Assembly (NCBI GenBank): GCA_022925895.1
Contig: JAKSYS010000398.1
Coordinates: forward strand, 1 to 56,671
DNA length: 56,671 nucleotides
Reading direction: 5' to 3'
Origin: Fragilaria crotonensis
Taxonomy: Eukaryota; Bacillariophyta; Fragilariophyceae; Fragilariales; Fragilariaceae
The notes under the pieces are model-generated. The model was not told the DNA's origin, did no database searches, and saw nothing but the letters and a program-made list of their open reading frames with translations. This document shows, piece after piece, positions 17,874 through 44,293 of this stretch. A program made the position numbers and the translations under genes. The first letter of the stretch is position 1, and every line of letters starts with the position of its first letter.

Positions 17874-19705
17874 ATGAAGAGAGGTCACATTGCCAAGTCT
17901 ACAACAATGATGGACCGCCAAGACAAGGAGTCCGCAACAGAAAGTCATCGCAGAATCAAGAAATTAAAACACGATGGAGATACAACGCCGATATCGACCT
18001 TGCCGTCAAAACCAAGAATTAGCAAGTCAGACGTTGAAACCTCAAGCAGAAAGAAGATTTCCACTGATACAACAACTACGAATCCTATTAGTAAATCTCG
18101 GAACAAGAAAATCATTGACTCGGATGATGACGATGACGACGATAGTGTCATTGTTCAGGATCCCAGTTTCGATAACGATCAAGACGATGAAAACGAGGAC
18201 GTAACTCCAATCAACAAGAAACAGCGCAAGATTGAGATATTGACTCAAACAACCTTTCAGCCACTCCGGATGAAGGAAGCCCTGGTGAGTTTGGATCATT
18301 GTCGTGTGCTTGCAAATTCACCTTTTTCCTGTCGACAAAACTCACAACTAGTTCGTCTCCAAAACCCTGTTGCTGTTGTTTGTTTGTGCTCATATCTTTC
18401 CTTGGTTCCATCTGTGTATGTGTGTTTCTCTACATCCATAACTATGAATGCATGTGCAGGATGATATGCTACCATACCTGAAGAAGGAGGTGCACGAGTA
18501 CACAAGCATGGCAGAAGTCAGAGCCGCCGGCTATGCCTTTGGAAGCAATGAATCTGCAGAACGGTTCATTGTTGAAAAAATGAGACCGTCCAAAATCCAG
18601 AGTTGGGAATACAAAGTCTTGGTGGCACTCGTCTTTACAAATATCTATGCACAACAACAACAAATTGACAAGACGGATGATTCCAAGGTAATTACAAAGT
18701 ATGAAAAGACTATATTCGGAAAAGGCGAAACCAAGGATCAGGAGCTTGGTGTCAAAATCTATTGTGAGACGTGGAGGAATCAGGCGGTGACACTCATCGG
18801 CGAATTTGAAAAGGTCTCGGAATCCAACGACGCAGACAAGACGGCCGACCATGACCTCAAGACATCGTTGCTGGCAGAGCTACTCCTGGAGTTTTGTAAG
18901 TTTAGTGCCCAGTGCAAAGTGTTGAAGTCAAAATCGGCATTGGACAAAATTAAGGACCCGAAGAAGTACGGAATTGATTTCATGCTTGGGTTGGAGCAGG
19001 TATGTATGGCCCCGAATGATCCTCTGTGTCTTGATGCGTGTCCCATTTTCGTTCGCATTCCAGTCCCAAGCGTTAAGTCTTCTCTCACGTCATGTGTATT
19101 ACTTTTATACAATCTAGGCGAGTGAGATGGCAAACAAGCTGAAGCATCCTCGACTGATTCACGAGTGCAACATTGCCGCCACTCGATTCCGCACCATGAC
19201 GGCTACTGAAAGTCAAGCCACCACCACCACCACCACCACCACCACCATGACGCAAGCGGAGAAAGGAACCAAAAACACCAACTCGGAGCAACAATCAGCT
19301 CCTGCTGTAGCGCAGCAGCAGCAACAGCCGCCTTTGAAAAAGACAGGGCAGGAGAAGCGAATGCAAGTAATGCTCCAACGAATTGTCAGTGGTGCGACTA
19401 GTGCGGCTGCCTCGGCCGACACCGGGTCACACTTGCGACCTCGACAACTCAAGTCATCTTGGGGTGGCAAATCTACGTGGGGTATCCCCACTGACACTGC
19501 CAATGACGCAGAATCCGAAAACGTCGTGTCGAATGATGGCGTGGATTCCATTTATGCTTGGGCAGCATCGTCGACTAGGGTGAGGTACAACATATGGGGA
19601 AATGCGGCAGGGAGTGCACCAAATCAAGCAACCAATTCCCGGAACAGGAGCATGGCATTGAATCGCCGATCCTCGAATGGTCACCGCGGCGCTCCGCTTG
19701 AATAA
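17874..19705 (+). CDS. WG-motif protein A, candidate Argonaute-binding partner (short paralogue)
   Basis: Three exons (17874-18284, 18460-18999, 19118-19705) join in phase to 512 residues. An N-terminal basic and acidic disordered region (runs of Asp) leads to the conserved LTQTTFQPLRMKEAL. The next exon encodes an alpha-helical domain (RAAGYAFGSNESAERF, SWEYKVLVAL, LLLEFCKFSAQC, KKYGIDFM). The disordered C-terminus has three Trp-Gly dipeptides (SSWGGKSTWGIP and YNIWGNA) in a Gln/Ser/Ala-rich setting, as in Argonaute-hook proteins. It is clearly paralogous to the protein at 40703-44293, with the same splice positions, but lacks that protein's extra N- and C-terminal regions. Binding to Argonaute is inferred from the motifs and the cluster. 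The helical domain is not one I recognise. Confidence 0.7.
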
Positions 19706-20220
19706 GTCTGTACTTGTTCCAATGTATATTGATGCGTCTGGCCACTTTTTATTTCAGCGAGTCAGTTAAAATGATGAACCCTCTAGGCCAAGCCGACGCA
19801 ACAAACGAGCCTGCGTGGTAGTGACGAGTCGATTCCAGGTTGAATCTAATGTGTGTTATGCAAAGGTTGCGCTTTACCATCTCCATTTTTCTAGCTCCTA
19901 TTAGAATTCGGTTAGTTTCCGCGGCTTGCCGATTGGTGCATTGTAAAAGGAACTGGGTTTGTCTCTCACACGTGGGCAACACTCCGGGAATAAGTGATGC
20001 GGATGCTTATTGCATGTTCTAAATTGTACATTGATGCGAAGCGCCAACTACAAGTACTACTCTGTCTCTGCTAAGCTACTAGTAGGACAGCAGTAGTTTG
20101 GAGTTTGGGCTCAATTCACACCTCAGTTATCACAACTCACAACTTTGCTTCTTTTCGCGTTAACGTTTTAAACCGTTTTTGGCGCACAGCGCACTGGCGT
20201 TCTAGATATATGCATACGAA

Positions 20221-20448: not shown

Positions 20449-20851
20449 ACTCATATGAGTATGCATACACTTCAGAAACGCGCAATATCAAATTGAGCTC
20501 CATTGTACCAGGTATGTAGGAGCCAACAGTGTACGAGTACTGTTAGATATGCTTAGAAGAATACACATGTATGCATACTTTGTTCTCATTGGTGCGTTGT
20601 ACTCGTGCTGGAGTGTATGTATGCTCTCGACTCTCGGAGTGCACCATAGCGGCGATCGATCCATTTGTATGCATACCATAACTCGTGTACATTGTACACT
20701 GGTACTTGAGCAGTAGTAGATGTACCTCTGTATGTTAGACATCCGTTGTACACCATAGCAGAAAACGTATCTTGTTTTCTTGGATTTTGTTGCCCACTAT
20801 ATATCCTACTATATTATAAATTAATTGTGTGCGTGTGTGCGTGCGTGCGTC

Positions 20852-21036
20852 CGTCTGTTACGGAGTATGACCACTCTGGGGTACTGGATCAAATGAATAC
20901 TGTCTCATACTCGGAGTATGATATATGTCATACATGCATACTGGAGTACTCCGTAAGCGATGTCGGTAAGATTTGCATATACGTAGTTGCGTCAGTGCGT
21001 GCGTCTGTTACGGAGTATGACCACTCTGGGGTACTG
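20852..21036 (+). repeat. 35-bp direct repeat, two copies 150 bp apart
   Basis: A 35-bp stretch starting CGTCTGTTACGGAGTATGAC occurs at 20852-20886 and again at 21002-21036. Each copy follows a GTGCGTGCGT-like run. The copies appear identical over the full length, suggesting a recent local duplication upstream of the RdRP gene. Confidence 0.65.
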
Positions 21037-21244
21037 CACTACTTGCGTATAGTACTGAACTGTACAAACAGTACACACAACCGTGCACAACCCATACCGT
21101 ACACGTATTCCAAAAGTCCGACCAATTGGGAGGTACCCACTAGTCATATATAACATTGAAGACTCATTTCTTTCCAAAGCTCTTGAGGACTGTACTCTGT
21201 AATAAAACAACAACTACTACTCTCTTTGCTCCTTCATAGTCTCA

Positions 21245-24200
21245 ATGGTGACTCGCACTGTGAGGTACCTGAAACATCCAAAGCAGCATGATTCCCCTTC
21301 TCCGTCACCGGTGGTCACAGCAACTGATGATGGTGAAGTGGACAACAGTGGCGGCACGACGAGCGACACTGATCATCGCCGCAGCAACGTAGGTGGATCT
21401 TCATCATCATCATCATCACTGGAACGGCCAAGCAAGAAAGCAAAACGTCATCATCACAAGAACAATGGCAGCGATGATTGTACCAATGACAATCATCCTT
21501 GTGGAGAAACATCACCAATCGTGACTCCATCGTTACGAAAGAATATGAGACAAATTGGTGTGGACACTTCCCAATGTGGTTCATCAGCAAGGTGGTGACG
21601 ATGCAATGAACAACCAGGTCGTCGAAACAAATGCATCCGCAGGTAGGATTCAAGGTGGTGCGATGGATGACGGAGAACAGGATTCCCAGTCTCATGTTAG
21701 TAGTCTCTTTTCAGATGACGATGGAGATCAGGGTGATGCACATTCAGTGGCAACGCAAGAAGAAATCAATGATAATGATGACGACGGCGACGACGACAAC
21801 TCTTTGCCTTCTGGCTTGTTTACAAACATTGAAGATGAGGGAGACAAAAATGGCGACAAGGTTCAGATTAATGAACCTACCTTGCAACGAGTTACTATAT
21901 CCCACATAATGCAGAAGCAACAGATTATGAACGATGGTGACTCGCATGACGAAGGGTTGACAAGATCCCAGAAAATTCAGAAGCAAGCGACGGTGAATGA
22001 TGATGATGATGATGATGATGACTCGTCTGGTTTGTTTACGAGGAGTGGAGATGAAGGAGGCGATGGAGTGAAAAGATCCCAGAAAAATCAGAACCAGACG
22101 ACGAAAAATGATGATGACTCATCTGGTTTGCTTACGAACAGGGAAGATGATGAAGAGGAGAAATCACAGAAGATGCAGAAAGAGGAGACTGTCAACGATG
22201 ACGACTCATCCGGCTTGTCTTCAGAGGGTGAAGAAGAAGGAAGTCATAGAGTGAAAACATCCCTGAAGATGCGGAAACAAACGATTATGAATGCTCTTGA
22301 CTCATCCGGCTTGTCTACGAAAAGTGATGACGAAGGATGCCTAGGCGAAGGGGTGAAAAGAACACACAAGATACAGAAACGGATGACAGTCAACGATGAT
22401 GACTGGTCTGGCTTGTTTTCAAAGGGCGACGATGAAGGAGAAGAAAAATTGACAAAACCCCAGAAGATACAGAAACAAGCGATTGTGAACGATGATGACT
22501 CGTCTGGCTTGTTTTCGAAGAGTGACGATGAAGGAGGCTTAGGCGAAGGGGTGGAAAGATCACACAAGATGCAGAACAAGACGACTGTGAACGATGATGA
22601 CTCGTCTGGCTTGTTTTCGAAGAGTGAAGATGAAGGGTGCTTACGCGAAGGTGTGAAAACATCGCACATGATGCAGAAAAAGACGACTGTCAACGATGAT
22701 GAGTCGTCTGGCTTGTTTTCGAAGAGTGAAGATGAAGTAGACGAAGGGATGGCAGGATCCCAGATGGTCCAGAATCAGACAAATGTGAGAGATGATGACT
22801 CGTCTGGCTTGTTTTCGAAGAGTGAAGATGAAGGATGCTTAAGCGAAGGGGAGAAAAGATCCCAGACGATGCCGAAAAAGATGACTGTCAGCGATGATGA
22901 CTCGTCTGGCTTGTTTTCGAAGAGTGACGATGATGACGACGAAGGAGTGACAACATTCCAGAAGATGATGAAACAGACGAATGTGTACGACGATGACTCA
23001 TCTGGAATATTTTCGAAGAGCGACGAGGAGGACGAAAAAATCCAGGCCAATGAATGCCTTTCGATGCCAGTGACCGGAATTCAACCGAGGCAAGCGCAGG
23101 AGACTGCAAGCGATGATGATTCATGTGGCTTGTTCTCAAGAATTGAAGTCAAAGAAGAAGTCCCGGCCGAGGAAATGCCTGTGGTTAGAGTGACAAGGTC
23201 CAGAATCAGGATAAAGGAGGAAGCTTTTCTGAATGATCATTTAAGGGATTCGTTTCCCAATGAAACCACGCATAGAGAGGAACCATCCTTGTGTGATACT
23301 GGCCATGGTGTGGTGTTCCCTGCCCCCATCAAAAAACAATCGAGAGGAAGCCTTACCCGATTTGAACCCTTGGAAGCAAGTCGTGAGACGCTCCTGATGT
23401 TGAGTGAAAGCACAGACCAGTTTTTTCTTCGGCATGTGTTTGATGGAAAGCTTATCATCAAAACAATCAAACTTCCATCGAAGAAGCCCCTTGACCAAAG
23501 CTTTCGATTTGCAGGCCGCACGTATTCAATCGTAGCAGTAAAGCATGAAAAGCGCGACTCCAAGCAACCAATATGGAAGGATTCAATCCATGGATCTAAA
23601 GGTTATGCCAAAGCCTTTTATGTCGCGATGGATCATTGTGAACTTCAAAAGGCATTAAACCAGCTCGGAGACTTCGCTGCCTTGCAACCACCATGCAAGG
23701 CAGCAAGTCGGCTTGAGATGATGGTAAGCCCAGCAAGCACCGACAAAGCGGGATTCCCCCGCGTATGGCTCAGGAATATTGATGACTTTGAACTTATCGA
23801 GGAGAACCACCACGTGGGTTGTGGCTTCATCCCGGTCGAATACCTTGTTCAATTGGTTGGAACCGCTGACATTGCAGCTATACAGGTTCGTATTTATTCT
23901 AAGGCCCTCGGACACTTCAAGGGAATGCTAATGGCCAAGAACCGCATCACTCGGATCCAATTGCCACACTCAATGCTGAAAGTGAGGCCATCACCCGAAA
24001 AAACAAGGACAGATACAGATGTGTTCGTTCTTTGCAATGGAGTTTCCCCTTCTAATTCTAGCCGGATGTTGAACCGACACCTCAACCCAAATCTAGCCAA
24101 CCCACCACCGAGTGCAATAAAGGATCTTCGCCCGATGTCACCCATGATTAAGAGCCTCATGGTTCTCGTAGGTGTTCCAAGTGAGGTTGTGGAAAAGTTC

Positions 24201-25477
24201 AGCAAAGATGCTAGTCAGGACTGGAATCGCAAACACTGGGCGTTTTGTGTTGGAGTGGCAGATCCAACAGGATGCCTTCCGGCAGGTTCTATCTTTGTCA
24301 CTGGAGTCGGTGTTGGCTATGACACTGCCAACAACAAGCACCAGATGTTTATTACTCGATGCCCCTGCACGGAACCCAGTGATGTGAAGGTGCTCCCAGT
24401 GGTAAGCCATAAGCCTGCCAGCATGCCTGTCGAAGACTGGAAACATTTATGTTCGATTAGTTTTGGTTTGGTGATTTTTGCCACCCCAAATGGCGCTGCC
24501 GGGTGTTCTTTGCCGGAAAGCATAGCCGATGGTGATCTGGATGGCGACCCGTACTTCTTGTGTTGGGATCAAGAGATTTTGCACATATCTCCAGAACGAC
24601 TCATGAACACTAATGACGATGTCGAGGATGCCCAAGATGACCTTATTGGTCAAGATGTGACAACCATAAAAGATGGAAAGCTTCTTCATGGTATAACGAT
24701 CCGTCAAGACGATCAAGGTGGCTACCTCTGTGACTTCCTGGCCCACGGTCGATGGTCGTTAACCAAGAGCGAGGTCCTCGGCGATCGTGACTTTATCGTG
24801 AAGATCCATGATCACCGAGGTCTTGGTGTGAAAGCCGAGATCCTAATTGAATGGCAGTTCGCGAGTACCCCCACGTGGGAACGTATCCATGGTTTTCGTA
24901 ATGATGAGGCGAACGCACAAGTTGTTGCGGAGTATGCCCGGGTGCAAGACTTGCTGGGGACTCGTGGATGGGAATGGACCAAAGATTTCATCAGACCTTC
25001 AGAATTGGCAGAAATACTAGAGCACGATGAGCGCGACGGGATTTGCAAGTCCGTGTGATTTGGGATCATGGTGAAGTTGACTGGGAGTCAGTGTTGGAAT
25101 TGCGCGAGAACGAGGTGCAGGAAAACCGAGAAAAACTTGCAAGGTATGCCCAAGAGAAAGATCTTTTACGATGTGAAGGCTGGACTTGGGCGGAAAGCTA
25201 TTTGCAAGGGCTATCACAAAAATGGTTGGATCCTGTGCAGTGTTACTTGGTTGACACAGATCGTCTGGTGGAGCGCAGTCGCCTTACTGAGGCTCTTCAT
25301 AACGCTTACTGCAAGAGCATAAATCACGGCAGTTCTGAGCAGGACATCAAGGCCTTGGGGCGTGCATTCAAACAATCGATCGATATTTCGAAGCATGGAG
25401 GAATGGTTGACCTTCCTTTTTACTTAAGAAAGCAAGTTCGAGGAACGAAACTACAGAAGTTTCTGCGGTTGGTGTGA
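21245..25477 (+). CDS. RNA-dependent RNA polymerase 1 with acidic repeats and chromo-like insert
   Basis: This cellular RDR-type polymerase would convert single-stranded RNA into dsRNA for small-RNA production. The start ATG is at 21245. Residues about 180-640 are a disordered, highly acidic array of DDDSSGLFSK-type repeats. The polymerase half shows GHFKGMLMAKNRI...LPHSMLKV, then LPAGSIFVTG, ITRCPCTEPSDVKVLP and the catalytic ADGDLDGDPYFLCWD (24526-24570; metal-binding Asp triad DLDGD). After it come two tandem chromo-like modules (EILIEW...TWERI...GWEWTKDF and VRVIWDHGEVDWESV...GWTWAESY). The RDR-like tail ALGRAFKQSIDISKHGG follows. One-base frame breaks lie at about 21570 and about 25045 (a T run). 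The N-terminal half of a usual RDR core is poorly conserved, so this is a divergent or shortened polymerase. Confidence 0.8.
21780..23150 (+). repeat. Acidic DDDSSGLFS coding repeat array
   Basis: About 13 imperfect copies, roughly 75-110 bp each, encode DDDSSGLFSKS-DEG followed by a basic segment ending in KKTTVN. Copies near 22490-22960 are the most alike, suggesting recent unit expansion. The Ser residues beside acidic runs fit the casein kinase 2 consensus, which is an inference. Confidence 0.75.
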
Positions 25478-26027: not shown

Positions 26028-29000
26028 TCATATGGACTGAATGCACCTAAAAGATTGTTTTGGGGGTAAATCCGAAAACACAAAGGCTGATGTTGGAGGT
26101 CCTTACCTTTCGAAAAAGTACTCAGGGATTCCGCTCTTCTCCATTGATTTCGTCAATTGGACGTCTAGTGCAATGGGGGGTCAGGGCCATGTCGATCATG
26201 AACAAGCATCAGCCCACAGATCGTACCTGGTAGATATCCCGATGCTATATTACCAAGTTTGACAGCATACTTGACCACAGGTACCATACGCACCGCTTTC
26301 GTTGCCGTACCATACTGAAAGGACATAGAATACGTCATTCGCTGAATCTCCTCCTTTGTTAAAGGTGTGCAATTCTCACCATTTGACCAGGGCCGCCAGA
26401 CAAAGTTTTCGTTGAGAATCTGGTAAGCAAGATGAGTTAGTACCGCAGCAGCAAGTGCCCACACAAAATAGAAACTTACGACTCGGTAAAAGATAGGTTT
26501 TGAGGTGCCCTTGAGACCGCCATGAGCTGTCAGCAGGAAATCAAACCCTGAGGAGCTCGGGTTCGAAAACACAAGTGGTATTGGATCATCAGGTATCCTA
26601 TCGATTTCGGGCTGCGGGGCTGAAAGGTTCAAGCCATCCAAGAAAGGAGTAACCGTATGGTCCAAACAAGTACCGCTTGGCACGTTTAGGACAGAATTCC
26701 GTTTGTTCATCACTTCCTGCGCTGGAACAATGCGAATGTTATGTTGGGATAGTGCCACGATGTAAGTGATGATTGGGGTGCAAAATGTGCAGCCATTCCC
26801 TTGGCACTTCCTCGCGTTTTCACAGGCTCCTCCATGACGAGCCATGCGAATATCGTAGAAAGCCTTTCGAAGCGTGGCCACCTCGCTGTTCAGAACGAGA
26901 TCGAAATTACCCTCAGATGAACCATTCCGGTAGACCACAATTCTTGATGGCATCTTGTCATCGTTGTGCAACAAATATTGGGTTGCCAATGTCTAGTCAC
27001 ACGCAGGGTTAGGTTTTCACAACACACGACGCCAACAAATTTAAATTCATGATGACCCACCTTGGACAATGCATACATAGGTACGGGCTCCACAACGCCC
27101 GCAGAGTCTTGAACGCGAAGATCAAGTGCCAGTTGAATTGTACCTGACACATCACGAGAAGCATGAGATGCATCGCCTTGATTCTCTAACGAAACTGCTC
27201 CAGTAACGATCGTCACTCCCTCTGTCCCCGCAGCTGCATTTGTTGTTAGAATAATAACTTTCGGTTCGAGAGTCAACGGATTTGGCTCGTACCTCTGGTG
27301 AGACTTAAACCCATCACCATGGTCGGAGTCTGTTCAAGCCATGGAACGCGACCCTCTTTGCGTAAAACCTGGATATCCCAAGCGCGAGCTTTGTTGCTTT
27401 TGGAGAAGAGCTTCGTGTTCACTTTGATGGCAATGTTACTGCAGCTGCATTTTTTACAAGGTTGTGAGTCATGGTGAGGTCGGCTGCTGACGAACCTGCA
27501 ATAAAGATCAACTTACTATTGATCGGGGCTTCGTTGACTCGTGAACTTGGAATGTACAAAGCATTGGGATTGAACATTGCACTCGATGTTCGAGACGAGC
27601 TTGACAAAGTGGTAAACCTGGGCATTGTCAGTGGGAAGGCGAACGAAAACAAGCGAAGGACATTCAATCTGGAATCCCTTCACAACATGGTAGGCCTTTA
27701 ACGTCGACACGTTCGCCTGCGGTATGTATTCTCCATTTTCAAGCATGTACACAAATTCGCCAGAGAAGTACTCCGAAACCCACTTCCCGTTTCCTTCCCT
27801 CCTTTCAATGGGAACTCCTGAAATTCGCAAAACGGTGAGCAGCGGGACTAGGAATCAAATATTCAAGCTGTCCTTTTTCTCGCACCTTTACCGATTGGGC
27901 CCCGCTTGTCATCGCCTCTTGCTATTGGGAATCGTAAGTCAAAAAGTTCCACTGCCGTATCCCCAACTACTGCCTTGATTCTAGCAGGCACTGGACCATC
28001 TGATTCTGGGAAAGTGACCCAGTGCGTCTCACCAGCAACATCAATCGGCAGTATCGCCTCGAAGGCATCGGCATCGATATGTCTCACAATCGCTAGGGAC
28101 GTATTCCCGTCAACTGCAGAGACGATGTTGGTCAAAAAGCCAAGACCGCTGTTCGATTGGCCTCGTAAAAAATGGTTCTTCGACTTTTCGATTGCATCTC
28201 TGAAAACCCGATTTATCTGTCGAAGCCCAAGTTGACTGAGTGCATATTCGCACAACGGATACAAACGACGACGTACTTACAGTTTCCTTCTCCCTTCCAG
28301 AAGGAAGATGTTCAGCTACGATGACCTCCAGAATTGCTTGTTCAACGTCAACGTTCCGAGGCATCTCAATGCCATGCGATGCCATAATCTCAAACAATCT
28401 TATAAAAGCAGAGCATCTGTTTTCTCCGACAACATTAGCAAAGTCTACGATAGCGAATGAGCTCATAAACGCAGGTTTCGAGAACTTGACTTCCGCAAGA
28501 TTCCAGGAGCCATCGTTGGGTACTTTCTCGTTATTCAGAAACCTCATAACAGGCTGAGGGAGCACTGACGCCTCGAGTTTTGCCGGTTCGAGGTCTGTTG
28601 TAAGGTTCAACTGCTGCAGTAGCATACCCAATTCTGGTCCACTTTGCATCTTCACTTCCTCGACAATTCGCTTCACATGCTGTAGGTGCTCCATTCGTCT
28701 TGTCGATGCGAAGTGATCGTTGAACTCGAGTACATCGGGATTGTGATCAACTTCACGCACCTTGCTCCACGCCTGGAAGAAGAACTCAAGTGGAAGCTTC
28801 TCTATGATAGGTTCATCCTTCTTGGTCTCGACTTTAACCTCTTCTCCCTGTACGACAGGGAGCAGTTCTTTAGTCCTCCTTGGGCGCGTCTTTTTGCCGC
28901 CCTTGATGATGAAAAGTGGCATCTTGGGGAAACGAAGTTTAATCTTGTGGTGGATTTCGAAGTACTCTGCGACTGTAACCATACGAGCATTCTCTCCCGG

Positions 29001-31865: not shown

Positions 31866-33008
31866 TTACACCCAAAAGTGAGCAGGAATACCTTTCTTGC
31901 GAAGGTTTTGAAAGAGATTCAGAGACTGTTGCACACTTCCCTTCATGATGGTTTTCCAGAGATGCGCAATCTCAGCCATCTTCACATGATGTTCAAAATA
32001 GAAGTGGTCCACTAAATTGTGAAGTTGAGGATTATTGAGTAACTGTCGAGCCAACGGAACTTCAACGCTTCTCGTGTCTACATCAAGCTTGATGATTATC
32101 AAATCATCTTGATTGTAGTTCTCAAGAAGCAAGTTCCAGGGATTATTCCGACTGGAAACGTCTGGACTCACACCGACATTGATCCAGTGATACGCAGCGA
32201 GCAATTCAAGCGGGACCTTGTCAAAGACCATTTGACTATCACTTTTCTTAATTTCAAAGGCATAAAAGTGATCAAAGGGAAAGCCAAACTTGCGATAGAG
32301 GGCAGCAAGCTTCAAGGCTGGCGACATGTGTTTGCCCCCATGAAAATTTAGTGACGCGCCCAAATCAAAGAAGACAATACGCGACGTCTTCCTGAGTTGT
32401 TTGCACATGGCACCAAAGTCATGGATTAAGTAATCCAAATTTAAGAAATCTTCGGGATCCTTGCAGAAGTTGGGGTGGCGCATGGGTGTAAAGAGCGGTT
32501 CAATGTAACCTGACGAAGAATACGAGAGCTGCCTACTTTCATTGAAGAATCCTTGTAGAATACCGTTTTCAGGATCCAGTTCGGCTCTCTTGCATACTTC
32601 ATCACGGTTTGTTTCATCATGAGTAAATAGAGTTCTGAGATCTGGAATGCTCTCAAACGTTGCAATCTTTTCATAGTAGTTCTTCAGCTCATTGTTTAAT
32701 GTCTGAGCCGAGTTGTACATTGGGTTTTCTTTATTATTCCATATCTCGCATCCAGAAGCCATGTCCGTTCGGTTCTCCCCAGCTTTGTCGAATCCCAGTG
32801 CAATAGCATTGTCCACGAGGTATTGCTCAAGCGACGCTGGTTGATACTCGGAGGTCGGGCCAGCGCTTATTCTTGCAGTTCCGGTCTTCGTCTTGCCAAG
32901 GTCTGCACAGTTCTGATTTATGCTCCCGATGATGGTAAGTGTTGATGTCAACACCAAGACCAAGACAACCGCGATTTGCAAAACTCTAGTAGAGACATTC
33001 GAAATCAT
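31866..33008 (-). CDS. Type II membrane protein with FkbM/methyltransferase-like lumenal domain
   Basis: An intronless ORF of 380 residues starts at an ATG at 33008. A hydrophobic segment near residues 10-30 (VLQIAVVLVLVLTSTLTII) is a signal anchor, placing the bulk in the secretory lumen. The C-terminal half has a Rossmann-like motif (RIVFFDLGASLNFHGGKHM), then DHFYAFE, DDLIIIKLDVDT and VDHFYFEHHV. This order recalls FkbM-type methyltransferases and related diatom proteins of unknown function. I infer a Golgi enzyme but cannot name a substrate. It shares an upstream region with the RecQ-RdRP gene. It is intact and seems unrelated to RNA silencing. Confidence 0.6.
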   Translation of the reverse strand: MISNVSTRVLQIAVVLVLVLTSTLTIIGSINQNCADLGKTKTGTARISAGPTSEYQPASLEQYLVDNAIALGFDKAGENRTDMASGCEIWNNKENPMYNSAQTLNNELKNYYEKIATFESIPDLRTLFTHDETNRDEVCKRAELDPENGILQGFFNESRQLSYSSSGYIEPLFTPMRHPNFCKDPEDFLNLDYLIHDFGAMCKQLRKTSRIVFFDLGASLNFHGGKHMSPALKLAALYRKFGFPFDHFYAFEIKKSDSQMVFDKVPLELLAAYHWINVGVSPDVSSRNNPWNLLLENYNQDDLIIIKLDVDTRSVEVPLARQLLNNPQLHNLVDHFYFEHHVKMAEIAHLWKTIMKGSVQQSLNLFQNLRKKGIPAHFWV

Positions 33009-33559
33009 TGTTCAGGTCAACAATGGATGGCAAGGCAAGCGAAAAAAGTGTCTGCACGCTCTCTCGCTTCGGTTCAATGCATTGTCACTCTTCACGCTGG
33101 TTGTACTGGTTCGATAGGTATATGGTAGCACATGGTACATGTACGGGTAACCTATTTGTACATAGAGTGCCGTTAAATAAATTTGAATCGATATCGCACT
33201 CTCTATGACATATGTCATACATAACGGATGGAACTGATGGGGATCGTTCGTACCGGGTACAGTCGCGTAACTTAGACGCAGAAACATACGAGGACGCCTT
33301 TTACTGGGACCCTGGTACTCCAGTACAGTACGGAGCCACCAATCCTCTCGTCGATTCCATCGACTTCACTTGCCAAGATCGCTTCAAAATCCGAGATCCT
33401 GTGCGCAACTGGGATATGCATCATCATCAGTGTGGCGTTGAGCAAGTATCTTCCACCTTGCACTTGATCGTGTCCTTAGCCGTATACGTACAAGTTCCTG
33501 GTAATATCCATTTTATTGCGCAAGGGTTGCACCTGCCTTGTTGATTACAGCGAAATATC
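33009..33559. promoter_or_regulatory. Shared bidirectional upstream region
   Basis: This is a 551-bp gap between divergent start codons of the membrane protein (minus) and RecQ-RdRP (plus). It contains a TATGACATATGTCATACATA palindromic patch at about 33205-33225. An open frame at 33212-33544 on the plus strand shows no domain and stops before the RdRP ATG, so I treat the segment as regulatory. Confidence 0.45.
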
Positions 33560-36500
33560 ATGTCTGACAAGAAGGATAACAGCGATAAACGCAACAAACC
33601 CTATGTTGACATTACTCCAAAGTCCTTTGCTGCTTTTATGCGTCAACCAATCAGTGGTCTAGATATCAAGAAGCGTGCGAATTCTGTCAAACGCAGCGAT
33701 TCATTTGGGAATGTCAGCAAGAATAAGAAATCTAGAGTGGACACGCCAAAAACAAAGACAGTTGGCGACACCAATGTTGTTCCGGCAACACCAATGGAGC
33801 TGGTTCAGTCCGCGACGCCTTCCATCTTGCGCGTCACTCGAAAACACGCCGCTACTACGGTACAAGTTACGAAACCAAAAGGTGCAACCAAAGCACCACG
33901 AGAAATGGCCAAATTCCCAAATCCTTCGCAATCAGATGTACTGTCATACCTCTGTCAAGATTTCGGACTGCAACTAATCGACAGCAAGAATGGTGACAAT
34001 GTTAGTACTGCCGTCTCATGCCGTTGGGAAGGACAGGAATTTCCGTCCATTGATGCCTTGAGAACACACTTGTGTCGAACGGGACTGGTCGCGCCGAGTA
34101 AAGAGTGGTTTCATAAGAATATGCAACGTGCAGATCGGCTTCGTTACTACGGTGGAGGTACAGATTTGTACGTTCCGGAAACAAAAAAGGCAAGAATGAT
34201 TGCCGATTGGATTCGTCTGGATATTGTCCCCGTCGCCCATCGCAAATTCGCGTCACTCGAACGGTTGGCAAAAAAGGAGGTTCAGACCGTCCTTCGAAAG
34301 GTCGGAGTCCGCGCAACCATGGGCAACTTTGAAATGGACGGCGAGGAGCTGCAATGGAATGAAGTCGAACGGAAATTGGCAACCTTTGGCCTTTCGCAGC
34401 AATTGTGGGAACATCCAGGTGCTACAGAGACTGAAAAGCTGTCGGTGTTGCTTTATTATGTTGACTATGAGGTCATGTGAGTCCAACTTGTTCGCAATAC
34501 TGCGAGCGTTTATGTGAGCAAAAATGGGACTAACCTTTTTCTTGCACCACTCCAAGTGTATTGCAACGTGAATTGACATATATGCCAAGCATGGATGCGG
34601 AGCTGCCTGCCACGACGCGTCCTAGGAGGCGGGTTGTTTTGCAGTCACAACAGGCCAAGGCGCCGGCTCCGCCAAAGTCAATGAACATCGAGGTCAATTC
34701 CAATCCACCGGACAAGACGGTTGAGGAAGATATTGTGTTGGACCAATGGAAAGCACCGGATGAGCGGCAGGTTCCCGACGACTTTCCATTCTTTAGCGAC
34801 AATGAGGAGGGGAAGGAGGACATGCCTGCCGCAGGCTTGCGCCGACCGCTTGAGCCATTTCCCCCGAAGCGCAAAAAAATGAGACGAAAATCGACGTTTT
34901 GCCGCAGAAAGCTCGAGGCCGATGAATTCGTTGGACGCTGCCTGCTGACTTCGCCAGACTTTTGGGATACGCTTGGACAAATTAGACCAAAATCGAGCGA
35001 TTTTGCCTGGGGCAAGCCCATTGGTTACCGACGCCACATGGGTCGAGCGTATTTCGACTCCTTTGTGCTCTTTGGTAAACGGATTCAAGTTGGTAGCTTT
35101 GTGAAAATGGACGAACAATACTATAAGATCATTTCCACGTTCCAAGCAACTCGGTCGTTTATTGGTCGTTGGAGCACAAGAACCGATGAGCTGCAGAACC
35201 GTGGATACGCCTACGTTGAATTGGCACCAATTAAACGCGATACCGAAGGACGTTATTTTCTTTTTCGATCCAACGATTGGAACCCTGGCCACATTGAGGG
35301 AATTCCAACCTCTCTATTTCACCCCAACGGCGATTCACGCGAGCTGGAATGCGTTGCTGTCACATGCTCTGGCGTCTGGATCCGTTCAAGGGTTCATCGA
35401 CCATTCACAGCCGAACAGCAAGCTTTTGTGACAGAGAACGATGCTTTCGCCTTGACCTCCCGGTTCGCCCTTGATGCGTGGCCAGAACTCACCAACGCAA
35501 AGTGTGTGATTCTTTACGCGAATGAACGGGAGTTTAAACTTGCAACTGATGAGAAGTACACGATATTCGACAGTGACGATAGCGATGATTTTGAAGAGTC
35601 GTCGAGTCAACGTATCAAACAAGGAAAATTTAACTGGAACGAAGAACTTGAATGCGACTTAATTGATAACGATCTTGAACCATCGATCATGTTTAGAGGA
35701 AATCTCCTTCCCGAAAAGAAGGTGGATTCCGAACACCTGTATGAAATCCTTATGAAAATAAGTCCGTTGTTGGATGCTTGCGAAGCATGCGATGAATCCC
35801 TGAAGGACTCAGTGTCTGCTCTTAGAAAGGAGCTATTCTTGCGCACCGCGACATCGAGGCTTGATGATTTTTTTACCCTGATTCGTGTCCCTGCAAAATG
35901 GGGTGGCGGCATTGTGAAACCTGAGTATGCAAAGGTGGTGGGATACAGCCGATACAAGAGCAAGATCCAACAGCTAGCATGCGAGCATGTTGCGAATCGC
36001 GAGGACACTGTCATGATTGCTCCTTGTGGGTCGGGGAAAAGCATGGCCTTTGTGCATGCGGCTCTAAACTCAGGCGGAAAGGTTAACATTGTGATTGAGC
36101 CCCTCAACGCAATCATTAAGAGCCAGCTTGTGGAGTTGCAATACTTGTCAGGGTACATTGATATAGAACAGCTCTATAGTGAAGATGACGCCAGAGAGCA
36201 TCGAGTTCTCAGCAGCTACAACAGAATGCAAATGATAATTAATGATACTAAGGTGAGTCCTATTGAGTTGCAATCGGGAAAGCTCAGCCTGGCAAAATTT
36301 CTCACCGATTTCACTAAAGCAGGATGGCTGGATGTCGAAGCCCCTGCTTCTTTTCGCCACGCCAGAACTAATTGAACAAAGATTGCCACAGTTGAAGGTC
36401 CTAGCTGCAGAAGGTTTCCTCTCCAGTGTTACCGTGGACGAGATGGACATGATTGATCGAAGTCGTGGGGGCTTTCGTGGTGTCTATACCAATCTGGCAG

Positions 36501-39500
36501 AAAAACTTCGTCTCCACTGCGAAGGAGCCAAGTTCATTTTTCTCTCAGGCACCATCACAACCCGCGGGTTGGTGAGTTTGTTGCCATCTGTATCGATAGC
36601 TCAACAACTCCCTGAAGTTACGAAACCATTGCTTGTGATCCACGAACGCGCCCTGGCAGATTCCCTTTCCTTTCATGTCGAACGCAAAGTCAACGATGAA
36701 CAGGTAGGTCTCGAGATTTGTGATGCGGCGGTTGGTGTTGTCCCTACGCATTAATGCTTATCGTGCATGCAGGTAGCTGAACGTATTGTGTGGTGGATCA
36801 GAAACGCCAAGGGCCCGGTGAAATGTTTGTGCTACTGCCTCACGAAACCTAGATGTCGAAAAATTGCCCAACTGCTTGAAGACAGGGGGGTAACTTCAAT
36901 GCCAGTGACGAGTGAAGAGAAATCAGCCTTCAGTGAAGTGTTACAGTCCTTTCGAAAGGGACGCATTTCCGTTCTATGCTGCACAGGAGTCTTGGGAAGA
37001 GGATTCCATGTTGATGACATTCGCTTTGTCTTCCACGCTTCAGTTCCATTGGACCTCACGGAGTACATTCAGCAAACGGGGAGGGCAGGCCGAGATGGTA
37101 AGCGAGCTCGATGCATCTTGTTCTACAGAGCGCAAGACTTCGCCACTGTTCGCAGAATCAAAATTCGGCCCGACGACCCGGACGTCGTTCGAGAATCTGT
37201 CGATGCGGATATTGCCGAGGTGGCTTCGTACGCCATGACAGACAAGTGTCGGTATTCTCAATTGGCATCCTCTGCTACACTCAAGCAATGCAGGCCATCA
37301 GACCAACGATGCAATAAGGATGCTCCTTGCGACATTTGTGTTAACATGAATTCTCAAGTATTTGACATTGGAATGAGTCATGTGTTCGATTCAATAAGCG
37401 ACCACACTGCGTGGGAGTTCGATACGAACCAGCCTTCACTGAGCGATGATCTACTCCAACTCTTTCTCAATACGAAGATTCTCGAAAAGAAGGGTCCTAG
37501 GCAGCTGCAGGCAGGCTTAAATTTCCATCATGTCCATGAGCAGCTGACGACAGGAGCTGTTGGATTCTTTGTCAAACATAAGAAAGGAGATATCGAGCAT
37601 GACTCGTCGAGGTCGTTGGAAGAGAATTACTCAATGGATTGTCCGAAAGTAAAGATTTTTGATTACGAGGAGCTGCATGATCAGGCACTTTTTGGGAACA
37701 CAAACGAAGTGGATGACTCAATCGATCCCCTAGATCGTTTGCGAGTTCCATTTCTGGTCCGATTTGAATCCGAAAGGTAAGTCACACTTCCGATTCCAAG
37801 GTTATGCATCCACGCCAATAAGGATCTATCTCTCAATTCGTTGATGTTAAACAGAGCTCGGCAGTCCAATGCAGAGTGCGAATCGAAGATCATGGACCAC
37901 TTTGGGTCCGAAGTTGTTGGTTCTCTCGATTGCTTGGATGCCTGTAGATTCTTGAAAGGTCTACTGCCCCGTCGTGAAGCTGGGCGATACGAATCTGCGC
38001 TTCCTCGGTTGCCGGCGTCTGAGAATCAACTTTCATTTGACGAATTTAACAGTGGCTCAGGATTGTATTTTCATGGCGAGTTAGACGCCAACAATGTCAT
38101 TCGTTTGTTACCTCCAGAGCGGGCCAACAGTCGAAGGATATTTAGAAAGTTTGGCAGCGATCGTTTCCTTCACGTAAAGGTCGCTGGAGATCTGCCCGAC
38201 GAGCGCGTGATGAAAAAGTTCACCCAGAAAAACGTGTTATCCGGACGGACCTACGCGTACTTATGGTGTAAGGCGCAGAAGTCTCCCCAATGCTTCGTTC
38301 TGTTTGCTGAACGCGGTTTCGGGATTACCGAGGAGTTATCCGCTGAGCAAGTTCTAGACTGGTGTATTCCGCGAGAGCTCAATCCGGACTTAACAGTTGC
38401 GAAGGAGCTCAAGCGAATGAAGCTCGCGTTTTCAAAAACTACCCCGTCCTTTGTTCTGCCAGAAAATTCAGTTGAGCTGATTGATGACATTTTAGGGGCG
38501 AGAGGAACACTGATGACAGACGGTGCTGGGCTCTTGTCAAGGGGTGCTCTTAACGAAGTATGGAGATGCTACTCCGGTGGATCAACGTTGTGCCCATTTT
38601 CATCGTTTCAAGGCCGTCTTGGTGGCTTTAAGGGGATGTGGGTACTGGATGATTCCCTACCAGGGATTCAGATCAAATGTCGACGTTCCCAATTGAAATT
38701 CAACGTTCCAATGAAATCGTTGGCATCAAGTACCAATACGTTTCACACGAAGGAAGATTCGCTGTACGATACGGTCGAGGTGAACAGTTGGGATGAGAAA
38801 CCCGAGAAAGGTTTTTTGGTAAGTATCGGTCGTTACCATTAGAGCACAAGTTCATGTTTAATGAAGGTCTAACCTTTGTGACGAACACACAGTCTGTCCG
38901 GCTGGTCCAGATTCTGGAACGCCGAGGTGTCAGTCTTGATTATTTCCTTCGCTGCGCGGATCATGGCCTGTGCTGGCTCGACGAGCTTGACAGTAATCTG
39001 CCATCCAGTCAAGCCCACTTTTATGACGAGATTCGTAGGAGGCACAGCAATATTGTCGCCATGAATGAGAAGGAGGAGCAGGCCAATGATGACATACTCT
39101 TCCATATGGCCTCTGCGAAACTTGACCCTAGCGAGCCGTATTATGCAGCCCAAAGGCGAAATTTTGTGAAGAAAACCGCTGACAGTATGCGGAACAAGGT
39201 GAGGATCTCGTGCTTTAACTTATCCATTCCGTTGCCTGACGTTACTAACCCATGGAGCCGCACGCGAAGGCCCGATATCCGTTGAAGGATTCATGGCACG
39301 TACGTATGCTTCCCGATCATATGCAACTTCTGAAGGAAGGGGAGGCCTTTGTTGCCCTGCCACATGAAGCGCACGGATCTCTACGTGAAGCAAAGGAGGT
39401 GCTTGCCTTTCGAAATCCATCCTACTTTGATGGGGATTTAAGGAAGATGACCTTGGTTCACTACGACGATTTGCTCCTGCGAGCTGATGAGGAGGATAGA

Positions 39501-40535
39501 AAACCTGGCAGGGTAGGGCGAGAATGGGTCTCCAAATTTCAAGGTTTTTTCAGTAATTTGATATCCGCAATCGTACTTAGCACCGTTGGTTCTGAGAGCG
39601 AGGCCGATCGAATGAGTGGGGGTGATTTTGATGGTGACAAGGCGTGGATATGCTTTGATCGCGATCTCGTCGAACAAGTGGCTGCGTCTGAACCCGCAAC
39701 AAGGCCTGATCCTCCACCGAAAGATCGTGCCGAACACCGGCTCGTCGTTGATGCAAGTGTGATACATCGAATAAAGTTCGCTCGTCATTTCAAGTACCAC
39801 CAGCGGCAACTTGGATTCCTGGCCAATACTCTCGACTTTGCCATGGACATGTTCGACGATTTCAGCACGAGCCCTATAATCGATGACATTGCACGGCAAG
39901 CATTTCTGCAAGTGGATCATCCTTATCAACTTTGCGCGCCCAAATCGGTTACCATGGACTATTTGAATTTGCAGAAGCAACCACATTGGAGCCTGAACCA
40001 AACGCTTCGTGCTGGGGAGGAACACGAGAAGGCCTACTGCTCTCAGAAAGCGATGGGAATTCTGTGGGATCACGTTGAAACAAAGATTGCAAGGGCTGTT
40101 TCGCACGGCAACGGCAACGAAGTTCCAAATGCGCATATACTGGAGCTGGCAGATACAGCATGTACTCGATTGGATTTTCCGGCATTGAAGTCAAAGATGC
40201 GAAAGGCTGTCGTTGACTACAATTTGGTATTAAAGGAACTGATGAGCTCAAAGCTGGTTTCGGTAGATAAAGTTGCCGAAAGGACTCATGAACTTGCGCA
40301 AGCTGAAAGAGCGAGACTCATTATTGACTCATTTGATTCAGAAGATGACAGAACTCTTGCAGCTGCTGTCCTCTACAAGGAGTGTGGTGATTCAAAGGGG
40401 TTTGCCTGGAAGGTCGCGAGAGATTACTTGATTTTAATCGTTGTTCGAGCTCAAAATAGGGGGAAATCTGCCATGCCAATCATAATGGATTCTGAAATCG
40501 ACAAACTGGCATTTGGGCGCAAGCAAAATAAATGA
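33560..40535 (+). CDS. RecQ-type helicase fused to RNA-dependent RNA polymerase
   Basis: Seven exons join in phase with no breaks to 2,177 residues: 33560-34476, 34557-36252, 36323-36703, 36773-37776, 37855-38818, 38893-39198, 39270-40535. After a basic disordered start and an unassigned region, an SF2 helicase core begins near residue 770. It has motif I APCGSGKS, motif II VDEMDMI, motif III FLSGT, motif V TGVLGRGFHVDDIRFVFH and motif VI QQTGRAGRDGKRA. A RecQ-like Cys cluster (CRYSQL...C...CDIC) follows. The RdRP half has LMTDGAGLLSRGAL, FQGRLGGFKGMWVLD, EAFVAL, AFRNPSYFDGDLRK and catalytic MSGGDFDGDKAWICFD near 1870, the QDE-1-like form of the motif. It would unwind or remodel templates and copy RNA (or ssDNA) into duplex for silencing. 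In fungi, QDE-3 (RecQ) and QDE-1 (RdRP) are separate proteins. Confidence 0.9.
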
Positions 40536-40702
40536 CTCACCATCAGTACTACGTCTCAATGTCAGGACTACTTAAAGGTGATGCCACCTCTCTATAGCTG
40601 CCTACTGATCAACGTTACGAACTCCATTATACTAGTCGTCTTACAAGGCTCACATTTCAGTGTGGACAGCGGTAAAAAGCTGTGCAAGGCATAAAGTACG
40701 CC

Positions 40703-43700
40703 TTATGGATTTCGATTCGGTTCCTGGTTTGTCATCCACGCCGGCATGGTCATTGCACGACCACGACCGCGGCCCAGGGTCGGATTGACCCGAGTCTCAG
40801 AAAACGCTGTAGGCGCAGCTACCTGTACGGCCACTGACTGTTCCTGTGAATCATTCGGTTGGCGCGAAGGGATCCCAACATCATTACCTTGACTTGTCAT
40901 CCATGCAGGCTTATTGACATGAGACCCTCTTCCTAATCCGGGACCACGGCGTTCCGACCGCAGAGGTTGGACTGGGTGCGGTTGGACGGGACGCTCAACA
41001 TTCGACGCAGGAGGAGAAGTCACAACATGCTCGCGCAAACCGAAGTTTTCGCTGGTTGTTTGCCAAGCAGGCCTATTCAGATGGGCGCCCCGGCCACGTC
41101 CATTTCCAGGTATTTGATGATCTTTCCCCTGAATTGAAAATGTGAGCGTTAGCTTAACGAGTGAGGAAAACCATTGCTAAAACCAACATACATAAGTACA
41201 CTCACATTTCCGACTCCCATAACTACCTGGCCTTGCTGCGGGAGCTTTGTTGCGGATGAAGCTGCTTGGAATATTGCGTTCGCAATTTGGTCCGCTGGCG
41301 TGATCGCAGTTGTTCCCACAGCATCAACAACGCTCGATAACAGTGGAGGAGTCACTGAAGTCTTCAGCTCGAAAGAATTTAGACCTTGGCTCGGGGCTCT
41401 ATCTCCCGCGCTTCCCCAAATGCCGAACCTCACTCTATTTGACGACGCAGCCCAAGCATAAATAGAATGCCCACTGTCCAGCGATTCATCTTGTTCCACA
41501 GGGGTGTTTTCAGTGTCTGTTGGGAAGCCCCATGCAGATTTTCCTCCCCAAGTAGAGTTCAATTGGGTAGGCGGAGCTGACCTGCCTGGTGGATTTTCTT
41601 GCGACGCAGTCGTGCAAGCACTGACAAGCCTTTGGTGCATTGCTCGCATACGTAGCTTTTGTCCTGCCTTTTGGTAATTAATGGTGGAAGGAGGCGGCAG
41701 CTGTTCAGTAGACGAGCTTGCTGCAGCGGCTGATGGTTGTTCGCCAGAATTGGCATTATTCTTTCCTTTCTCCACTTGCGCGGTAGCTTTAGAGCGATCG
41801 TCCATCATGGCGAGGAATCGACCTCTGGCACTGTTGCATTCGATACTTAAACTGGCAAGCTTCAACTTGCTCGTAATCTCGCTAATCTAGAAAGAGAATA
41901 TCGAGTGAATACGAAAAACAAAAAAATCGATACGAAGGGAGAAAATCAACCAGCTTACCTTCTCCAACGCTTGCATAAAATCAATGCCATACCTAGCTGG
42001 GTCCTTGATCGTGTCCAATGCAGCTTTTGACTTTAGTACTCTGCACTTCGCACTGAACTTACAAAATTCCAGGAAAAGCTCGGAAAGCAATGACGTCCTG
42101 AGGGGATGACTACTAGGCATGCTTGAGTTGGCGGATTTCGAGGCCTCTTCAAATTTAGCGAAAAGAGCCACCGCCTGACTACTCCACCTCTTGCAAAAGA
42201 TTTTGACCAAAGGCTCCTGGTTCTTTGCCTTTCCCTTTCCAAATAAAGTCTTTTCAAACTTCGTGATAACTTCCGTCGCCAGTGGCTGTTCATAGATATT
42301 TGTTAACACGAGCGCCACCAAAACTTTGTATTCCCAACTCGTGACAGATGTTCTCATTTTTGCAACAATGAACTGTTCCGCTGATTCATTACTTTTGAAG
42401 GCGTAGCCGGCGGCTCTCAAATCCGCCATTGTTTCACACTCGCATACTTCTTTATTGAGGTACGGTCGCATATCATCCTGCTCGAAACAATTTGTGTGAA
42501 TGTGAGTCTATGTGTATTGTATCGTGTTCATTCGAGGGAGTCAAAACTTACCAACGCACCTTTCATCCGCAGAGGTTGAAAGGTTGTTTCGGTCAAAATC
42601 ATTGACAGTCGATGCTCGCTTGCACGTTTTTCTTCTCCGATGACTCCTTCCTTATGATTCGCGTCTTCGACCTTCGTCTGCGATTTACTCTTCCCATCTG
42701 AATTTTCAAACCCGGCATCATTGGTCGTTCTTTTCAATGGTGTCGGAGCCTCCTTGATAACACGCTTAAGTTTCTTCGCTTTTCTTGGCGACGATGACAA
42801 AGTCGATTCTTGATTCACGACTTCCTCGTCATCAGTGTCCATGAGATCTGACACCCGGAGCTTATCCGCGCGCTTTCCGCTGCTCTCAACTGCACCATCA
42901 CCATTCTTGGTCGTCCTTTTCAACGGTGCAAGAGACCCCTTGACATCACGGTGAAGTTTCTTAGATCTTCTTGGCGACGATGTTGAAGTCCCATTATTGA
43001 CCGATTTTTCTCTCCGTTCTTCTTGATCGGCGATTTCCTCGTCATCAGTGTCCACAAGGTCCGATATCCGGCGTTTCTCTTTACGCTTCCGGCTGCCCTC
43101 AACCACAGTGTCCAACTCACTCCCCGGAGTTGTTCTCTTTTTCAAGGGTGGCAACGTCGATAAAGTCTTGTTGGTCGAAACCTCGGACACCCCGGGTACC
43201 TCCAATTTGGCATCCACCCTTTTCTTCTTCAATCTCGGCAACAGCGTCTCATCTCCATTTTCAGTCTTGACCGTTTTCGATTCTCGTTTGTGATTTACCT
43301 CATCTGCTGCTTCTTGTAGTCGTTCAGCATAGACCCAATTGGGATTGACGCGTCGAGTTGGTGCATTGTCATCATGGAGCAATTCACCCCAGGGATACCG
43401 ACCTCCACGACGTTCGGCTGCCAAGGCTGACGCAAGCTCATCGCGTCCATTCTCGCGACGTTACGTTCTGTTTGAGAGCAGTCGCAAAGGCGCATTTAGG
43501 AAATTGAGGATGAAAGCCCAAGAAATGATTCTTGATAAATGTCGCGTGCCGTTTCAAGAGTTGCAAATCAAATGGTTCGGGTGAACGATCGGGAATTTGG
43601 CTAGTAGTTGAGGACTGGGTGTGAGTTCCTTGTGGAGGGCATCGGGAGTTTGGTTGGCGTGACGTGTCAGCAGTGCGAACGAGTCGGGAGTCTCATCAAA

Positions 43701-44293
43701 CAAAAACAAGTCGCACAAATTGGAGACGAGTCCTAATTTGGCACGCAACTCAAGATGCAGTTCGTCCTGACTCGGGTATGTGACAACAATACACGAATGA
43801 TCGTTGGTCTGTTGTATTCCATCGACTGTAACATGGACCGGATATGTAATCTGGCGACTGCAGGGTCTCTTCAACCAATACCAGGCTCGGTCTGTTTGAG
43901 CCCATATTCCTCTTAATTCATTATCTCGGTCCACAGACCATCTCCCATCATAGTTGATCCGGACTGGAATGTTGTCATTTCCTTCTTGTTGTGCGACCAG
44001 CATTCCACGAAGTGTATACGAACCGGGGTGCGTCGCATCTTCCAAATTAATGCGAATCGGCAAAGTCGAGTCACTCTTGGTCAAGTACCAATCCTCCAAA
44101 GCGCGATAAATGAAATGATGGCCTGTTATATCGTAGGCTCTGCCTTTCATGAGTGGAATCTATTGAGTCATGCAAGGATGAGATCAATACCGTTAGTATG
44201 TGAAGATCCGGTAGATCACATGATCAACGAAATCAATGGAAACAAAACGCATGAGCTCCAAAACAAACTTACATCTTGTTCGGTTAACTCCAT
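40703..44293 (-). CDS. WG-motif protein B with RFD-like N-terminus and GRG/PAW C-terminus (long paralogue)
   Basis: Exons 44293-44273, 44159-42552, 42477-41959, 41886-41206 and 41128-40703 join in phase to about 1,084 residues. The N-terminal part contains GIWAQTDRAWYWLKRP and, further on, PFDLQLLKRHATFIKNH, which recall the DNMT1 replication-foci domain (tentative). A long basic and acidic region follows, with repeated VDTDDEE and LKRTT blocks. LTETTFQPLRMKGAL and the helical domain (RAAGYAFKSNESAEQF, SWEYKVLVAL) match protein A. The disordered part has three WG dipeptides (STWGGKSAWGFP, FGIWGSA). The last exon has three GRGRG...PAW(M/Q)T repeats. Two compensating one-base shifts near 43585 and 43450 interrupt the second exon. 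It would be a scaffold binding Argonaute; the RFD hint would link it to chromatin. Function is inferred. Confidence 0.7.

Follow-up and report, generated by a model that had tools for sequence, protein, structure and literature searches.

A gene cluster encoding an Argonaute, two WG-motif proteins and two RNA-dependent RNA polymerases, one of them predicted to be fused to a RecQ-family helicase, in the diatom Fragilaria crotonensis

In fission-yeast RITS/RDRC, an Argonaute (AGO), a GW/WG protein, an RNA-dependent RNA polymerase (RdRP) and a helicase act together on chromatin. The genes for these components do not form one cluster in Schizosaccharomyces pombe, and S. pombe Ago1 slices. Human AGO1, AGO3 and AGO4 have incomplete catalytic residues. 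Translation can be repressed by AGOs that do not slice, and repressor activity is known for GW proteins.

A RecQ helicase and an RdRP have been linked in two sets of experiments: QDE-3, a RecQ helicase, and QDE-1, a DNA/RNA-dependent RNA polymerase, are needed together in Neurospora (PMC2950127), and in rice DNA-damage small RNAs depend on both OsRecQ1 and OsRDR1 (PMC3559376). Proteins with an N-terminal helicase and a C-terminal RdRP in one chain were described for Dictyostelium, oomycetes, Hydra and Nematostella; in that account the fused helicase is a DEAD-box helicase proposed to be Dicer-derived, and a tree sets the RDR helicases apart from that of Dicer (PMC4791657). An account of oomycete AGOs reports incomplete catalytic residues in clade II, MID residues that are better conserved than the catalytic ones of PIWI, and tandem AGO clusters in Phytophthora (PMC6284064). 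AGO-like proteins of diatoms were described as having canonical domains (PMC3145265), and key residues are ascribed to the RNAi proteins of diatoms (PMC4247016), in passages that do not list the PIWI triad; for brown algae an intact DEDH is reported (PMC12867755). Among the listed titles and abstract openings from an open-licence library, none concerned a RecQ-RdRP fusion, a slicer-dead diatom AGO or an AGO-RdRP gene cluster.

Cluster layout and the second contig

The window, i.e. the whole stretch of DNA analysed here, is the complete 56,671-nucleotide contig C335 of the F. crotonensis assembly, which comprises 62.1 Mb in 881 contigs. A 26-kb stretch of it (17874-44292) holds, in this order, the genes for a WG-motif protein (WG1), an RdRP (RdRP1), an AGO, one unrelated protein, a second RdRP (RdRP2) and a second WG-motif protein (WG2), the unrelated gene being the sole other gene recognised among the silencing genes. 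WG1, AGO, RdRP2 and WG2 were modelled as open frames spliced at GT-AG introns, with the WG2 model coming from a second contig, C239; RdRP1 and the unrelated gene were taken as unspliced frames. Domain matches and gene models agree with the original prediction of an AGO, two RdRPs, two WG paralogues and one unrelated gene within 26 kb; WG1 starts at position 17874 as claimed, and WG2 at 44292 instead of 44293. The gene orientations are mixed, with the unrelated gene and RdRP2 as the only divergent pair inside the cluster, and WG1 and WG2 lie in inverted orientation at its opposite ends. The only inverted repeats of at least 40 bp found at 14000-47500 were those of the WG pair. Rfam gave no match at gathering scores, and no tRNA was found. 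RNAi genes are physically clustered in a stramenopile here as in Phytophthora, but the Phytophthora clusters consist of tandem AGO duplicates, whereas that of the diatom consists of functionally different components.

The linkage was evaluated post hoc by placing AGO, RdRP1 and two RecQ-RdRP loci (RdRP2 and the paralogue described below) at random. AGO, RdRP1 and one RecQ-RdRP came to lie within 26.4 kb in 8 of 1,000,000 placements for an assumed haploid genome size of 31 Mb and in 1 for 62.1 Mb; the WG genes, whose linkage may come from duplication, were left out. The co-location of AGO, RdRP1 and RecQ-RdRP is thus above chance in this genome. A genome search gave no second copy of AGO, of the end of RdRP1 or of a WG gene outside the allelic pair C335/C239.

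C239 is collinear with positions 1-47031 of the window, the main blocks being 97.7-98.9% identical, and the order of all six genes agrees between the two; C239 is apparently the other haplotype of the locus. The clustering of AGO, RdRP and WG genes is therefore real and present in both contigs. The original prediction had named a mis-join of the window as grounds for its rejection; since C239 is collinear, a mis-join is unlikely, and we reject it. Across 47,152 aligned columns the two contigs differ by 361 SNPs and 170 indels of 1-2 bp, the window lacking the bases at 78 of them and C239 at 92; 90 of the 170 adjoin or fall inside a homopolymer of three or more. C239 has extra sequence beside the 15-17 kb region, which is a second copy with 95% identity, and also at 33.2 kb. 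Conversely, a repeat of ~332 bp (20813..21144), which in C335 precedes the start of RdRP1 by ~100 bp, is absent from C239 at the same site; dozens of near-identical copies occur in the genome, as judged from the best 40 of 394 candidates scored. The flank of C239 contains frames that look retroelement-like by eye; the two that were scanned gave no Pfam family over cut-off.

Several frames are broken by indels of 1-2 bp, namely those of WG2 and RdRP1 in the window and those of AGO, RdRP1 and RdRP2 in C239. Frame breaks affect four of the five silencing genes in one or both contigs, with RdRP1 interrupted in both, at different places. WG2 is open in C239, and its window frame has breaks near 43594 and 43447. 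The RdRP1 frame in the window is open at 21606-25055, with indels between the contigs at 21572 and 25040, and its 5′ and 3′ ends join in frame in C239, where the frames across the two junctions (665 aa at the 5′ end, 562 aa at the 3′ end) overlap the window frame. No part of any gene is interrupted in both contigs: WG1, AGO and RdRP2 are open in the window, WG2 is open in C239, and RdRP1 is covered by overlapping open stretches of both contigs only. As, in addition, the indels that break frames differ between the contigs and fall mostly into SNP-poor bins, a cluster of pseudogenes is disfavoured, and we favour assembly error as the cause of most frame breaks.

Polymerases and Argonaute

RdRP2 (33560..40535, plus strand) encodes 2181 aa in seven exons (33560-34476, 34557-36252, 36323-36703, 36773-37776, 37855-38818, 38893-39198 and 39258-40535), and the spliced frame is open. 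An N-terminal part of ~740 aa, whose scanned pieces matched no family, precedes a predicted helicase and an RdRP part that matches PF05183 in two exons (3.3e-37 and 1e-28) and contains the motif DFDGD. The best family of the helicase is RecQ (TIGR00614, 2.5e-45), at 155 bits and below the curated 219.8, and the top PDB structures are BLM (1e-27), RECQ5 and bacterial RecQ. After the helicase core, cysteines of the zinc-binding pattern CR...C...C...CDIC align with the CR...CDNC of BLM. No match to the Pfam RecQ zinc domain was listed for RdRP2, and motif II is not DExH. The score below the cut-off, the motif II sequence (DEMD) and the lack of a Pfam zinc-domain match make helicase activity uncertain. 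The genome contains 36 rows of RecQ-family matches (34 of 73 candidates scored), some of them stronger than RdRP2. The nearest PDB structure of the polymerase part is QDE-1 (5fsw, 9.6e-20), followed at ~1e-15 by 2j7n and 7y7p, which are labelled RNA-dependent RNA polymerases and which we take to be QDE-1 as well; further matches were 7w84 (2e-5) and plant RDR2 (0.0036).

The same order of helicase and RdRP was found in P0001, a metagenomic single protein of 1842 aa with 36% identity, which was the sole close likeness among seven hits, the other six being much weaker. P0001 matches TIGR00614 with 1.2e-56 and 192.5 bits. A paralogue on contig C199 also keeps the order and shows 68-70% identity in the helicase pieces and 78% in the RdRP, and C34 carries a fragment. 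The sequence CDNC occurs in both the C199 protein and P0001, and motif II reads DEMD in the former, as in the window protein, and DEFD in the latter. Relatives of P0001 were not confirmed in viral contigs or prokaryote genomes. The open spliced frame, the order on C199 and the single chain of P0001 disfavour two adjacent genes, and we conclude that RdRP2 is, as predicted from its sequence, a RecQ-family helicase fused to a QDE-1-like polymerase.

With respect to helicase type, RdRP2 is set apart by published description from the fusions of Dictyostelium, oomycetes, Hydra and Nematostella, which have a DEAD-box helicase, whereas that of RdRP2 is RecQ-like. The genome studied here also keeps a Dicer with its own helicase. 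The best matches of the RdRP2 helicase are RecQ models, and it is not of the Dicer/RIG-I/Hef type; by contrast, P0003, a DExH-RdRP labelled Effrenium voratum, had Hef nuclease as its best match and gave 4e-4 and 8e-4 with RecQ models. The helicase of RdRP2 has no significant similarity to the DExH-RdRPs P0003 and P0005 (best E 1.1). Because of its RecQ-like helicase and this lack of similarity, the RecQ-RdRP is likely to represent a fusion independent of the DEAD-box helicase-RdRPs. It resembles the pair QDE-3 and QDE-1 of Neurospora quelling and qiRNA in combining a RecQ-family helicase with an RdRP that has QDE-1 as its nearest solved structure, the likeness to QDE-3 being one of RecQ family. 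The Neurospora proteins are separate, whereas in the diatom both activities would reside in one polypeptide; the predicted diatom system further differs in its stramenopile host and in an AGO without slicing residues.

RdRP1 (21245..25477, plus strand) comprises acidic repeats, present as a tandem array of 8.6 units of 34 aa at 22163-23020, followed by a cellular RdRP (PF05183, 3.8e-33; motif DLDGD). The catalytic motif is followed by ~200 aa that, on inspection by eye, seem to be additional and that include two 70-aa repeats sharing 29% identity. This region had no other match in the genome and none in Pfam, and the PDB matches were weak (two cpSRP43 chains, E 0.1 and 0.71; two chitinase chains, 0.1 and 0.21). 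Its structure model had a mean pLDDT of 34.7 and was of no value. The likeness to a chromodomain is weak and not claimed. RdRP1 and RdRP2 are 21% identical over a stretch of 120 aa (E ~0.1), and we therefore reject tandem duplication as their origin; judged by their sequences, they are not close relatives, and both keep the catalytic motif. This result, together with the RecQ fusion of RdRP2, agrees with the earlier claim of two structurally different RdRPs.

The AGO gene (26028..30782, minus strand) was modelled with 12 exons and 1341 aa, some splice sites being picked because the frame stays open. The protein has an RGG-rich N-terminus followed by PAZ (1.1e-7) and Piwi (1.2e-24), both over the Pfam cut-off, and ArgoMid (2.5e-5) just under it (24.9 versus 27.5 bits); the closest PDB match named was AGO10 (1.9e-15). 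With PAZ, MID and PIWI in one protein it is a eukaryotic Argonaute. The catalytic D/D/H of PIWI is replaced by S/N/V (residues 1020, 1104 and 1305), in a comparison that covers three of the four catalytic positions, D-D-D/H, the fourth being Glu, and the 5′-phosphate pocket is intact (Y941 K945 Q957 K980, YKQK). For alignment, all 11 hits of the homologue search were used, consisting of 8 clade relatives and 3 more distant proteins. All eight clade relatives, and nine of nine members when the window AGO is counted, are without at least two of the three catalytic residues. The first position is S in seven of the relatives and keeps D in P0013, the second is without D in three, and the third is without D/H in all eight. 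The MID residues Y, K, Q and K are kept in 9/9 clade members. The three distant hits read D, D, D; two of them carry the labels of fungal species. Two of the eight relatives are labelled, as Thalassiothrix antarctica and Corethron pennatum, diatoms of different classes, which bears out the original description of the genome as diatom-like. By its sequence, the AGO lacks the slicing residues but keeps the pocket for the guide 5′-phosphate.

A Piwi family search gave four matches, on C335 and C239, and a divergent clade AGO used as query gave 15, all at the AGO locus on these two contigs, which makes it the only AGO locus found in the genome. In an alignment-based scan of viral contigs no AGO relatives were confirmed. 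As in human AGO1/3/4 and the oomycete clade II AGOs, MID is kept better than the PIWI triad, but the diatom AGO differs from these proteins in being the only AGO found and in that the loss extends to nine of nine clade proteins.

WG proteins and other genes

WG1 (17874..19705, plus strand; exons 17874-18284, 18460-18999 and 19118-19705) encodes 512 aa and WG2 (40703..44292, minus strand) 1088 aa according to the C239 frame. As originally claimed they are paralogues, with a common 173/180-aa domain that is 65% identical. Both contain a four-tryptophan module of near-constant spacing in which three of the four W are in WG; in WG1 it forms the C-terminal module SWGGKSTWG...AWA...IWG. WG2 consists, in order, of a long N-terminal region, a basic linker, the domain shared with WG1, the four-W module and three GRG...PAW(M/Q)T repeats, the N-terminal region and the repeats being confined to WG2. 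WG1 gave no Pfam family over cut-off, a model of the WG central domain (mean pLDDT 42) was not used, and no homologue of WG2 was found at E 0.01 among 7992 candidates scored. On the basis of the conserved motif, with tryptophans flanked by G/S as in AGO-hook proteins, WG1 and WG2 are putative members of this class.

By its motifs the N-terminus of WG2 had been suspected to be DNMT1-RFD-like. It gave nothing in Pfam at E 10 and three unrelated chains in the PDB (E 0.81 to 0.95); PF12047 had no match in the genome, and the control genomes gave none either. As none of these searches lent support, the likeness is not claimed.

The unrelated gene (31866..33011, minus strand) encodes 381 aa without a Pfam match at E 10. 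It has 10 matching rows in the genome, one of them on C199 ~2.6 kb downstream of the RecQ-RdRP paralogue.

Two Dicer-like genes lie outside the cluster on other contigs. The gene on C544 combines DEAD, Helicase_C and Dicer_dimer with a pair of RNase III stretches; that on C658 has such a pair plus a PAZ match under cut-off. C437 has a single RNase III match. DNA-methylase matches in the genome number 13. These Dicer-like genes, like the RecQ fusion of RdRP2 and the AGO without slicing residues, had been missed in the original prediction.

Proposed pathway and alternative explanations

The combination of a slicer-dead AGO, a RecQ-fused RdRP and WG proteins points to chromatin- or DNA-linked silencing rather than RNA slicing, and we consider the chances about even that the cluster supplies the greater part of a nuclear small-RNA silencing pathway that works without slicing in the diatom. 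The RecQ part may act at loci that are repetitive, stalled or damaged and open DNA or R-loops there, so that the QDE-1-like polymerase part would make double-stranded RNA on the spot. The Dicers encoded outside the cluster would cut this into small RNAs that load the slicer-dead AGO, and the loaded AGO may serve at nascent transcripts as a tether for RdRP1 and the WG proteins. The tethered partners would recruit chromatin or DNA-methylation silencing and further synthesis of double-stranded RNA, comparable to RITS/RDRC. The targets would most likely be transposons, and the location is presumed to be nuclear. Like RITS/RDRC, the cluster encodes an AGO, WG proteins, an RdRP and a helicase; it differs from the S. 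pombe system in that the genes are clustered and the AGO is without slicing residues. RITS also has a chromodomain subunit, for which the weak likeness in RdRP1 is no established counterpart.

Linkage without function, in which real silencing genes became neighbours by local duplication, chance or history, appears possible but clearly less probable. WG1 and WG2 are inverted paralogues at the cluster ends, and their linkage can therefore stem from duplication; moreover, the RecQ-RdRP of C199 likewise has a relative of the unrelated gene in its vicinity, and no shared promoter arrangement was seen. However, RdRP1 and RdRP2 are too dissimilar to be recent tandem duplicates, the proximity of AGO, RdRP1 and RecQ-RdRP was rare in the random placements, and the RecQ-RdRP on C199 stands without an AGO, RdRP1 or WG copy, as these were found on C335 and C239 only. 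The linkage may reflect co-functioning parts that are inherited together, or it may be a relic. The original prediction had read it as co-regulation, which is not shown by this analysis: the orientations are mixed, and the only divergent pair involves the unrelated gene.

Cytoplasmic antiviral or post-transcriptional RNAi that works without slicing, by translational repression or RdRP amplification, is in our estimate unlikely. It would fit the translational repression known for slicer-dead AGOs and GW proteins, and two RdRPs suit the amplification of secondary siRNAs, but a RecQ-type helicase on an RdRP suggests a DNA template or an R-loop. The other arrangement originally proposed, a selfish or defence-island-like mobile cassette, we consider highly improbable: although the genes are clustered between inverted WG paralogues, with a polymorphic repeat insertion beside RdRP1 and the retroelement-like frames in the C239 flank, the cluster occupies the same place on both contigs among ordinary flanking genes, the WG pair is its only inverted repeat of 40 bp or more, and no second copy as a unit was seen in the genome. 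Hence, of the original interpretation, the clustering holds and is rarer than expected by chance, but neither co-regulation nor a selfish island was supported.

Extending the nuclear, slicer-independent pathway from this genome to diatoms in general, we tentatively suggest, with less confidence than for the pathway itself, a lineage-wide slicer-free silencing in which RecQ-RdRP would make double-stranded RNA at DNA and the dead AGO would act only via tethered WG proteins and RdRP, all linked as one gene group. If real in nature, the RecQ-RdRP fusion would be evolutionary evidence that a RecQ helicase and an RdRP share a substrate. In the reports considered here, on Neurospora (PMC2950127) and rice (PMC3559376), this link is shown by experiments. 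The RecQ-RdRP would offer a single enzyme for asking whether RNAi triggers are copied from DNA.

Divergence of the WG2 four-W exon

Comparison of C335 with its collinear contig C239, apparently the other haplotype, revealed 68 SNPs per kb at window positions 41001-42000, whereas all other 1-kb bins of window positions 1-47000 had at most 24 per kb. At 41251-41750, in the WG2 exon encoding the four-W module, two 250-bp bins reached 88 and 112 SNPs per kb. In the two 100-codon bins concerned, dS was 0.15 and 0.16 and dN/dS was 0.48 and 0.38, respectively. This SNP peak might reflect ancient alleles, introgression, or gene exchange. The C-terminus of WG2 (40703-41126) contains three GRG...PAW(M/Q)T repeats, which are distinct from the WG module.

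A ferric reductase/NADPH-oxidase-like gene with EF hands is located at window positions 4008-6263, and a second copy with 89% identity was found at C239:65784-68046.

RdRP1 repeats and a second RecQ-RdRP

At the N-terminus of RdRP1, an acidic unit around DDDSSGLFSKSEDEG is tandemly repeated in 8.6 copies (window 22163-23020), possibly forming a protein-binding array. Immediately 5′ of RdRP1, a repeat of ~332 bp (window 20813-21144) is present in C335 only and absent from C239. A second RecQ-RdRP was identified on another contig of the genome (C199:9587-14929), and fragments of the ~332-bp repeat also occur 0.6 to 0.9 kb 5′ of its frame. Near this RecQ-RdRP lies a relative (C199:17349-17849) of the unrelated gene located between AGO and RdRP2 in the window, a pairing that hints at a segmental duplication.

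A Dicer with helicase and dimerization domains

The minus strand of C544:1-5247 encodes a Dicer that includes both a helicase and a Dicer_dimer domain. This contrasts with a statement in PMC3145265 that neither of the two diatom genomes available at the time had yielded a canonical Dicer.
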